Shown here: positions 1,579 through 57,480 of the stretch, piece by piece | How positions within the stretch are numbered: the stretch's first letter is position 1 | How the letters are laid out: the number at the start of each line of letters is the position of its first letter | Assembly: GCF_026283965.1 (NCBI RefSeq) | Contig: NZ_JAPDPD010000002.1 | Location: forward strand, 186,001 to 250,000 | Length of the DNA stretch: 64,000 nt | Direction of reading: 5' to 3' | Origin: Dyella subtropica | GTDB lineage: Bacteria; Pseudomonadota; Gammaproteobacteria; Xanthomonadales; Rhodanobacteraceae | The notes under the pieces: generated by a model | What the model was told of the DNA's origin: nothing | Databases searched by the model: none | Seen by the model: the letters and a program-made list of their open reading frames with translations, nothing else | Made by a program: the position numbers and the translations under genes

Positions 1579-2034
1579 CTCCCTCTCCCCTCAGGGGAGA
1601 GGGTTGAGGTGAGAGGCGGGTGCTCGCGATAACCTCACACTGTCGTCACCCCGGCGTAGGCCGGGGTCCAGTGTCTTTGCGCTTCGATTGTCGCGTCTGC
1701 GTGTTCGGGCTCGCCTGCCGCGGGCTTTCGAACCGCTGCCGCGGTCCGAGTCACTTTTCTCTGTTTGGCCAGAGAAAAGTAACCAAAAGAGAAGCCACCC
1801 CGGTTACGCGCCCTCCGGCTTCGCCTGCGGGTTCGTGAGGACTGGCCGGGCTTTTCGACACGACGTCCCTGTCGTGTCGAAAAGGCATCGACGTCCTGTC
1901 GATGCCCCCTTCGGGGCCTGATCGTCCAGCCCTCACCGCTGCACAGGGGACCCTTCACGGGCTCGCTTACGCATCGCCGCTGCATTGCTCCCTCTCCCCT
2001 CCGGGGAGAGGGTTGGGGTGAGGGGTGGGTGCTC
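1579..2034 (+). repeat. Composite multi-hairpin intergenic element, copy A
   Basis: This fills most of the 649-base gap between the kinase and the TVP38 gene. In order it holds a CCCTCTCC/GGGGAGAGGG hairpin at 1579-1603, a TCACCCCGGC/GCCGGGGT repeat near 1645, a stem with TGCC loop at 1732-1745, an 11-bp stem with a 6-base loop at 1753-1780, a 14-bp stem with TCCC loop at 1851-1884, a second TCC-loop stem at 1884-1906, a short CCCC-TTCG-GGGG hairpin and the tail CCCTCACCGCTGCACAGGGG near 1930-1950. A second CCCTCTCC/GGGGAGAGGG hairpin closes it at 1989-2034. Other copies lie at 37367-37740, 47434-47850 and 57063-57480. The apparent reading frames across it are by-products. Function unknown. 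Confidence 0.9.
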
Positions 2035-37366: not shown

Positions 37367-37740
37367 CTTCCTTTCCCCTTCGGGGAGAGGATTGGGTGCT
37401 CGCGACATCGCCTCTACTTCGTCACCCCGGCGCAGGCCGGGGTCCAGTGTCTTTGCGCTTCGATTGTCGCGTCTGCGTGTTCTGGCTCGCCTGTCGCGGG
37501 CTTTCGAACCGCTGCCGCGGTCCGAGTCACTTTTCTCTGTTTGGCCAGAGAAAAGTAACCAAAAGAGAGGCCACCCCGGTTACGCGCCCTCCGGCTTCGC
37601 CTGCGGGTACGTGAGGTCTGGCCGGGCTTTTCGACACGACGTCCCTGTCGTGTCGAAAAGGCATCGACGTCCTGTCGATGCCCCCTTCGGGGCCTTGTCG
37701 TCCAGCCCTCACCGCTGCACAGGGGGCCCGGAGATCAAGA
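37367..37740 (+). repeat. Composite multi-hairpin intergenic element, copy B
   Basis: This accounts for most of the 524-base gap between the SET gene and the convergent Gre-factor gene, starting 55 bases after the SET stop. It is the most similar copy to the one at 1579-2034. Its hairpins lie at 37529-37556 (6-base loop), 37627-37660 (TCCC loop) and 37660-37682 (TCC loop), with the TGCC-loop stem near 37508-37521. It lacks the long loop of copy C and the second flanking G-rich hairpin of copy A. Confidence 0.9.
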
Positions 37741-47433: not shown

Positions 47434-47850
47434 CTCCTCTCCCCCGTGTACAAATCGGTGAACGGGGGAGAGGATTGAGGTGAGGGGCGGGTGCTCGCGA
47501 CAACCTCTCGCTGTCGTCACCCCGGCGTAGGCCGGGGTCCAGTGGCGTCGACGCTTCGATGTTCGCGGTATCGCGACCTGGCCGCTTACGCAGCGGGCGT
47601 TCCGACTCGCTGCCGCGAGCCGGGTCACTTCTCTTTGTTTGGTCAAAGAGAAGTAACCAAGAGAAAGACCACCCCTCTTCCGCGCTCTCCGGGCTTCGCC
47701 CTCCGAGTCCGTGAGGTCTGGCCGGGCTTTTCGACACGACGTCCCTGTCGTGTCGAAAAGGCATGGGCATCCGTGCCCATGCCCCTGCGGGCCTTATCGT
47801 CCAGCCCTCACCGCTGCACAGGGGCCCCCAAGATCAAAAGCAAACTCTCG
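47434..47850 (+). repeat. Composite multi-hairpin intergenic element, copy C
   Basis: It starts 28 bases after the receptor stop, in the gap before the convergent molybdenum-hydroxylase gene. The opening G-rich hairpin has a 16-base loop at 47447-47462. Further hairpins lie at 47606-47619 (TGCC loop), 47627-47654 (6-base loop), 47727-47760 (TCCC loop) and 47760-47783 (TCCG loop). This copy is the most diverged in the stems, and nearly every stem change is matched on the other arm. Confidence 0.9.
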
Positions 47851-57062: not shown

Positions 57063-57480
57063 CTCCCTCTCCCTCGTTCACCGATTTGTGCACGGGGGAG
57101 AGGGTTGGGGTGAGGGGCGGGTGCTCGCGATAACACTCCTACTTCGTCACCCCGGCGAAGGCCGGAATCCAGTGGCGTTGCCGTTCGATGTTTGCGTTAT
57201 CGCGACCGGGCTCGCCTGCCGCGGGCTTCCGTCCTCCTGCCGGAGGTCGGGTCACTTTTCTCTGCTTGCCCAGAGAAAAGTAACCAAAAGAGAGGGCACC
57301 CCGGTTGCGCGCCCTCCGGCTTCGCCTGCGGGTTCGTGAGGGTTGGCCGGGCTTTTCGACAAGACATCCATGTCTTGTCGAAAAGGCGCAGGCGTCCATG
57401 CCTGCGCCCCCTGCGGGGCTTTTTCGTCCAACCCTCACCGCTCCACAGGGGGCTGGAACTCAAAGGCCAAGATCAAAAGC
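57063..57480 (+). repeat. Composite multi-hairpin intergenic element, copy D
   Basis: It fills the 568-base gap between fumarase and the lysine gene. The first hairpin has its 16-base loop at 57077-57092, which is the reverse complement of the loop in copy C apart from one base. Further hairpins lie at 57233-57246 (TGCC loop), 57254-57281 (6-base loop), 57352-57385 (TCCA loop) and 57385-57408 (TCCA loop). The remaining 140 bases before the lysine gene show no lysine riboswitch or recognised motif. Confidence 0.9.

Follow-up and report, generated by a model that had tools for sequence, protein, structure and literature searches.

The genome of Dyella subtropica contains at least 60 copies of an intergenic element, which is probably a non-coding RNA repeat, dispersed and in part mobile, whose transcripts bind CsrA. 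A transcript running through the element would fold over ~235 nt into three parts: (i) a closed multi-branch domain, in which the loops of two hairpins (P4 and P3) would present CANGGANG-type sites for a single CsrA (RsmA) dimer, (ii) an H-type pseudoknot with an 11-bp stem, whose major groove would hold the loop UCUCUUUU as eight U.A-U / C+.G-C triples, and (iii) a short terminal hairpin.

Four copies, A to D, lie in the window, i.e., the whole stretch of 64,000 nucleotides that was analysed (Table 1). All four are present and alignable where the original prediction had placed them, and the stem alleles described there proved correct. The TGCC-loop stem reads ACCGC/GCGGT in copies A and B, CTCGC/GCGAG in copy C and CCTCC/GGAGG in copy D; the long stem with the 6-base loop is ACTTTTCTCTG/CAGAGAAAAGT in copies A, B and D and ACTTCTCTTTG/CAAAGAGAAGT in copy C; and the last stem is GGCATCGAC in copies A and B, GGCATGGGC in copy C and GGCGCAGGC in copy D, each with its complement. 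The loops had also been taken as constant, but the 6-base loop is TTTGGC in copies A and B, TTTGGT in copy C and CTTGCC in copy D. The loop changes have their counterparts in a segment beyond a mirror tract, the two forming a pseudoknot. Nor is the element restricted to the four copies first recognised: a 23-base core matched 60 places in the 4.95-Mb genome with at most three mismatches (38 forward and 22 reverse), while the reversed core, used as a control, matched none in the whole genome. A genome search with copy A, in which the best 40 of 159 first-look candidates were scored, gave at least 42 matches among those listed (40 long and 2 short).

Table 1. Positions of the element copies and their parts in the window.
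Feature	Position	Strand	Remarks
Copy A, whole, with flanking BoxC-type repeats and small REP-like palindrome	1579..2034	-	
BoxC-type repeat matches flanking copy A	1581-1610 and 1990-2019		
Small REP-like palindrome in copy A	1645-1673		
Copy A, TGCC-loop hairpin	1732..1745	-	GGCA loop on the minus strand
Copy A, predicted triple-helix pseudoknot, whole	1753..1797	-	
Copy A, stem S2	1753-1763 with 1770-1780	-	
Copy A, predicted third strand	1785-1792	-	
Copy A, pseudoknot helix S1	1766-1769 with 1794-1797	-	
Copy A, hairpin P3	1852..1883	-	minus-strand loop AGGGAC (CsrA-like)
Copy A, hairpin P4	1884..1906	-	minus-strand loop AGGAC (CsrA-like)
Copy B	37367..37740	-	pseudoknot 37529-37573; P3 37628-37659; P4 37660-37682
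Copy C	47434..47850	-	pseudoknot 47627-47671, all three strands with a different allele; P3 47728-47759; P4 47760-47783
Copy D	57063..57480	-	pseudoknot 57254-57298; P3 57353-57384, minus-strand loop ATGGAT; P4 57385-57408
BoxC-type repeat match in copy D	57065-57111		
Rfam TwoAYGGAY (RF01731) match in copy D	57317..57458	-	47.6 bits, gathering score 43

The element is modular. Its core spans ~235 bp and terminates at CACAGGGG; an outer CCCTCTCCCC..GGGGAGAGGG repeat, detected with a relaxed BoxC-like pattern, adjoins 31 of 62 copies, and a palindrome, GTCACCCCGGCG..GGTCCAGTG, adjoins 41 of the 62. Two different triplex motifs would stand side by side here, as G/C-rich repeats of the BoxC/TM(ECO) type flank the element. 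The long stem occurs in four main alleles in this genome, and by eye the alleles of separate stems are freely combined among copies. Nine of the 60 copies (L050, L078, L080, L081 and L083-L087) have lost half of stem S2, whose usual partner is absent, and show an identical junction in the middle of that stem followed by other hairpin-rich sequence. Ten copies (L020, L048, L050, L065, L068, L083, L085, L086, L091 and L098) carry an identical CCCATGTCATCTAAGAGC-like replacement or insert in the 3' arm of P3.

Read on the minus strand, the core comprises, in order, a closing stem made up of GUGAGG/CCUCAC and CUGG/CCAG, a small hairpin (CCC/GGG), P4, P3, the pseudoknot and the GGCA-loop hairpin. 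In an alignment of the 60 own copies, this structure of 55 pairs in 8 helices was paired in 93.1% of 3281 cells, while only 36.6-50.7% of cells were paired when the partners were slid by 1-3 columns (six versions). Cells changed on both sides numbered 214, against 72 +/- 6 in shuffles, pairs with both-side changes 20 against 12.7, and the covariation score was 0.196 against 0.089; none of 500 shuffles reached any of these observed values. Of the five measures used, one, the number of further pair types, was no higher than in shuffles (39 against 40.3, a count reached by 435 of 500 shuffles). Hairpin P4 had both-side changes in five of its nine pairs and no unpaired lettered cell. The order of hairpins, pseudoknot and terminal hairpin recurs, judged by eye, from Xanthomonadales to Azotobacter and Methylobacter. 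At the level of sequence, the comparison demonstrates the pairing, and the proposal that the folded form is under selection is borne out by pairing and both-side changes above the slid and shuffled controls in the 60 own copies.

The stem with the 6-base loop is, on comparative grounds, part of an H-type pseudoknot. In each of the four main alleles of the own genome, the tract after AAGTAACC mirrors the purine strand of the stem. We then searched 308 sequences with two requirements only, the hairpin and an AAGTNACC[AC]A anchor, leaving the rest of the tract free, which yielded 193 distinct sequences; the mirror was perfect in 170 of them, with one mismatch in 19, two in three and five in a single case. 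From the third position on, the tract in these 193 sequences carries A (851 cells) rather than G (8) beside T-A pairs, and G (275) rather than A (3) beside C-G pairs, with 15 further cells at G-C or mismatched pairs. After deduplication into 42 combinations, 236 of 256 positions agreed, against 167 +/- 8 in 2000 shuffles (maximum 196), and 28 combinations were perfect, against a shuffle maximum of 14. Many of the loci had been fetched with a purine-tract pattern, so that copies without a purine tract are omitted; the pattern is blind to A versus G and therefore cannot create the mirror agreement. The second helix is formed by the last four bases of the loop, which pair with four bases starting one base after the tract, perfectly in 143 of the 193 sequences. 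Nineteen different 4-bp helices were found, and 19 of 60 distinct pairs were perfect, compared with at most six in shuffles; the alternative registers 0 and 2 gave only 7 of 70 and 2 of 74 perfect pairings. In the alignment of the 60 own copies, this loop-formed helix (helix 6) was 95.4% paired, and the site of copy D in a second genome, G001, carries a different stem allele with the pairing kept. The comparison thus demonstrates covariation of three strands, from which a U.A-U / C+.G-C triple helix is predicted on the minus strand, its topology being that of telomerase RNA. Mirror tracts are not a product of DNA copying. To our knowledge, base-triple covariation across many taxa is rare.

The folded strand appears, with moderate support, to be the minus strand in all four window copies. 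This strand is favoured by the GGA loops described below, by the fold energy of copy A (-128.7 with z -7.1 on the minus strand, -115.2 with z -5.6 on the plus strand) and, in one count but not in a second, by G.U mismatches outnumbering A.C ones: among 401 distinct hairpins, the single mismatches comprised 34 G.U, 15 A.C, 35 T.T and 24 C.T, while G.U and A.C cells were equal in the own alignment (35 each), 32 of the 35 A.C cells being confined to two columns with rearranged alleles. Deviations in stem S2, read on the plus strand as five T.G against no C.A, lean to the other strand. Placing a U.A-U / C+.G-C third strand in the major groove, parallel to the purine strand, requires the minus strand; only there would the tract be loop 1 of an H-type pseudoknot and cross the groove of the stem after it, as in telomerase RNA. 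Pyrimidine triplexes form in RNA and purine-motif ones do not, and T.A-T and C+.G-C triplexes form in DNA also, as treated in PMC4666352. A purine-motif triplex on the plus strand, which we considered as a candidate, is disfavoured for RNA on the account given there, though possible for DNA (PMC4666352).

The minus-strand loops of P4 read AGGAC, ATGGAT, ACGGAT, AAGGAT and similar, with GGA in 59 of the 60 own copies, and GGA is also present in the P3 loops of 51 of the 60, seven of the nine exceptions having another 5' arm. The consensus motif of CsrA/RsmA is CANGGANG in a hairpin loop. Among these copies the GGA loops are kept while the stems change, and the two GGA are spaced 25 nt apart in copy A; at the D site of G001, the P4 loop is ATGAAT on the minus strand and lacks GGA. 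When a fixed rule was applied to 176 element readings (L162 to L307, three of the readings being of the own genome), 183 GGA-loop hairpins were counted against 19 TCC-loop hairpins; the most frequent of ten other loop triplets in the same readings were AGG (99, overlapping AGGA), GCA (30) and GAA (29).

The own genome possesses one csrA. Taking a PF02599 match as presence of csrA, we found, in a first set of 24 genomes, that 9 of the 12 csrA-bearing and 1 of the 12 csrA-less ones had GGA hairpins; the corresponding figures were 38 of 57 and none of 7 in a second set of 64 genomes, whose hairpins were scored ahead of the csrA search. Both sets together give 47 of 69 against 1 of 19 (Fisher's test, 6e-7), a difference that persists when Desulfobacterota, Bacteroidota and one Gastranaerophilales bin are left out (47 of 69 against 1 of 11, 3e-4) and when one locus per genome is counted (43 of 69 against 1 of 19, 1e-5); csrA is present in 47 of the 48 tested genomes with GGA hairpins. 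No GGA hairpin was found in 22 of the 69 csrA-bearing genomes, including Stenotrophomonas (1-5 loci read in each), a share that does not represent prevalence, as zero-score genomes were deliberately entered first in the second set. Some of the 19 csrA-negative genomes may hold a csrA that was missed, as 16 are metagenome bins and another is only 73% complete; they also cluster in a few clades, so that kinship enters into the test. Of these 19 genomes, 18 have the mirror tract with no more than one mismatch and 11 have S1 in its usual register, one of the 11 showing GGA hairpins. The Bacteroidota loci (L201, L222 and L245) and the Gastranaerophilales locus L268, which lack S1 in the usual register, may be chance matches in A/T-rich DNA. 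Examples of csrA-less genomes such as Thiobacillus (L193 and L195), Rubrivivax (L192) and Pelomonas (L263) have the mirror tract and the S1 pseudoknot and no GGA hairpins. In the genomes compared, GGA loops are thus shown to be conserved and to be associated with csrA. This association favours RNA and is the main support for the element acting as such; binding of CsrA by the element transcript is putative.

No Rfam 15 family covers the whole element in the window, in eight own-genome loci or in 16 loci of other taxa, and no description of its architecture was found in the open-access literature searched. The statement that no described element of this architecture was known thus holds for the architecture as a whole in the sequences scanned, but parts of it are of known kinds, the domain with two hairpins being similar to TwoAYGGAY and the outer repeat to BoxC. 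TwoAYGGAY (RF01731) likewise has two adjacent hairpins with AYGGAY-like loops on the same strand, and these loops have been predicted as CsrA sites, fitting the CsrA motif (PMC4333381). Scores at or above its gathering score of 43 were obtained for copy D (47.6 bits), L010 (43.4) and Pseudomonas L202 (45.9). One of the four window copies reached this score; among the eight own-genome loci one lay above and one below it, and two of the 16 loci of other taxa had a match, one of them at the anchored element. The match in Pseudomonas L214 (43.6) lies on the opposite strand, ~310 bp away from the anchored copy, and is perhaps an inverted neighbour. Unlike TwoAYGGAY, most scanned copies fall below the score, and the matched part includes neither pseudoknot, triplex nor terminal hairpin. 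CsrB and RsmX/Y/Z are single or few sRNA genes with their own promoters and many GGA sites; the element shares GGA in hairpin loops in a CANGGANG context, but is repeated through the genome, each copy having two sites.

Telomerase RNA and SAM-II contain an H-type pseudoknot, the first loop of which forms U.A-U triples within the second stem's major groove. The SAM-V riboswitch is another pseudoknot with a major-groove triplex (PMC6061858). The element would share this topology and the U.A-U triples of the first loop, but here eight consecutive triples, C+.G-C included, are predicted, and in a bacterial dispersed repeat. The BoxC/PIT/TM(ECO) repeats are dispersed, intergenic and triplex-forming, and the outer CCCTCTCCCC..GGGGAGAGGG repeat appears to belong with them (PMC4666352); by eye, the BoxC pattern CCCTCNCCC N3-6 GGGNGAGGG N3 GGGNGAGGG corresponds to the outer repeat of several copies. 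BoxC is G/C-rich, ~36 nt long and treated as a purine-motif DNA triplex in PMC4666352, which deals with A/T-rich triplexes only in general and whose main text does not contain the terms 'pseudoknot', 'CsrA' or 'covariation'. The element core, in contrast, is A/T-rich with a covarying pseudoknot, and is not of the BoxC kind. The element resembles REP, BIME and REPIN sequences in its many intergenic copies, inverted pairs and structured single strand, but is much longer, and the own genome has no match to the RAYT family (PF01797).

Relatives of the element were found in other Xanthomonadales, Pseudomonas, Azotobacter, Methylobacter and others. Counting the own genome in each case, 36 of 61 genomes, representing 24 of 44 genera, had the core of copy D; the intact pattern was detected in 33 genomes of a sample of 200 from the order and in 15 of a sample of 274 from the class. 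A wider scan of named carriers gave at least 116 stretches. Together with the kept CsrA-like hairpins and pseudoknot, this spread suggests a widespread, putatively regulatory RNA element. Both the own genome and G001 carry the element at the D site, whereas G002-G005 lack it, three of the four element-less sites holding a BoxC-like repeat. Partial matches to one half of the element only were found in G001 and G004.

According to a simple gene caller, 25 of 57 own copies lie between convergent genes, 28 between co-directional and 4 between divergent ones, compared with 5, 19 and 7 of the 31 window gaps longer than 80 bp. These orientations revealed no preferred strand among the 57 copies, only avoidance of promoters. 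The element would be transcribed, perhaps by read-through, since 25 of the copies are between convergent genes and only 4 between divergent ones. In other taxa, inverted pairs of elements 370-600 bp apart occur at 16 of 116 listed loci, and the other order within 330 bp at three. Such pairs (L136, L186, L193, L195, L237 and others) often have different alleles on the two sides, and in G112 five of the seven inverted pairs among those listed join the identical two stem alleles.

Ends of the sequence CTGTCTCTTGTGCACA, which we take to resemble the Tn5/IS50 mosaic end, are found at 32 places in the genome (one match for the reversed control) and near 17 of 62 copies, six of which have both ends, 517-600 bp apart. 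They enclose or touch L091, L098, L048, L066, L083, L088 and 11 further copies. No clear 9-bp target duplication was seen by eye at these ends, and we rejected a Tn5-like MITE as the general carrier, as the ends adjoin only 17 of the 62 copies. A RAYT-driven REP was likewise rejected: the RAYT (Y1) transposase profile PF01797 had no match in the own genome, while it matched in 5 of 14 control genomes. In an all-against-all comparison of open frames of at least 100 aa around the 116 listed loci, protein clusters were either the element's own frames or at scattered distances, the largest of the latter comprising 14 loci, and an autonomous element with an adjacent gene was rejected accordingly.

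The chief rival to the RNA reading is a role of single-stranded DNA in mobility, which may coexist with a role as RNA. The element would then be a REP- or MITE-like repeat whose fold matters in replication or excision, with the GGA loops as contacts between DNA and protein. The high copy number, the modular association with BoxC-like repeats and a REP-like palindrome, the presence or absence at the D site between species, the inverted pairs (16 of 116 listed loci) and the Tn5-like ends (near 17 of 62 copies, both in six) would all suit such an element, although those ends lack clear 9-bp target duplications by eye, the own genome has no Y1/RAYT transposase match, and nearby protein clusters are the element's own frames (distance 0) or scattered (at most 14 of the 116 listed loci). 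Intrastrand triplex repeats such as BoxC provide a parallel, and DNA is likewise able to form T.A-T and C+.G-C triplexes (PMC4666352). As strand evidence alone cannot separate RNA from DNA, it is the csrA association, pointing to an RNA-binding protein, that leads us to regard the DNA reading as unlikely. The original prediction had proposed selection 'as RNA or as cruciform DNA'; a folded single strand stands, with RNA favoured by the csrA association and DNA possible, but a simple cruciform is insufficient, because the covariation of the third strand and the loop demands a pseudoknotted single strand.

Two further readings deserve consideration. The element may consist of two independent parts without joint function, a mobile triplex-pseudoknot repeat and TwoAYGGAY-type CsrA hairpins found only in CsrA-bearing lineages; the pseudoknots lacking GGA hairpins in csrA-less Thiobacillus, Rubrivivax and Pelomonas and the half-element matches in G001 and G004 can be read this way, but the order of hairpins, pseudoknot and terminal hairpin recurs by eye across taxa, and we judge such independence quite improbable. 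Least credible, to the point that we give it hardly any weight, is that the copies are inert selfish palindromes, with compensatory changes produced by gene conversion or cruciform template switching and no selection on the fold. Inverted repeats are correctable by template switching, and free combination of stem alleles among copies, as seen by eye, is what gene conversion would produce. Template switching, however, yields inverted rather than mirror repeats and does not link a hairpin loop to a segment beyond a third strand, and the GGA loops persist as the stems change; this reading is already largely refuted by the mirror tract.

If the favoured RNA reading is correct, the triple helix may shield the RNA or serve the element's own upkeep, and the 60 or more copies might act together by titrating CsrA or by marking the transcripts in which they lie. 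It is attractive, as a tentative extension, to speculate on a new class of mobile non-coding RNA in Proteobacteria, in which the triple-helix pseudoknot core spreads, copies in csrA-bearing hosts carry a two-site docking domain for CsrA, dozens of copies rewire or buffer the Csr/Rsm system, and insertions tag transcripts. Should CsrA bind, a global regulator would gain scores of extra sites that are mobile and differ between sister species, which bears on strain differences in Csr/Rsm regulons. The predicted eight-layer triple helix is readable from sequence alone in a repeat carried by a wide range of sequenced Proteobacteria, and the element offers a ready system for RNA triple-helix function in bacteria as well as a candidate RNA family for annotation.

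Open frames running through the element formed a false 'protein family' in 44 of the 116 listed loci, and are a possible source of spurious annotated proteins. The Pseudomonas sRNA P11 of Rfam was found at positions 2035-2173 of L211, in the same 8-kb stretch as the element and distant from it. Finally, GCTGTT/TTGCTG-like simple-repeat runs were noticed on the RNA 5' side of the element in several Xanthomonadales (L164, L179, L218 and L240).
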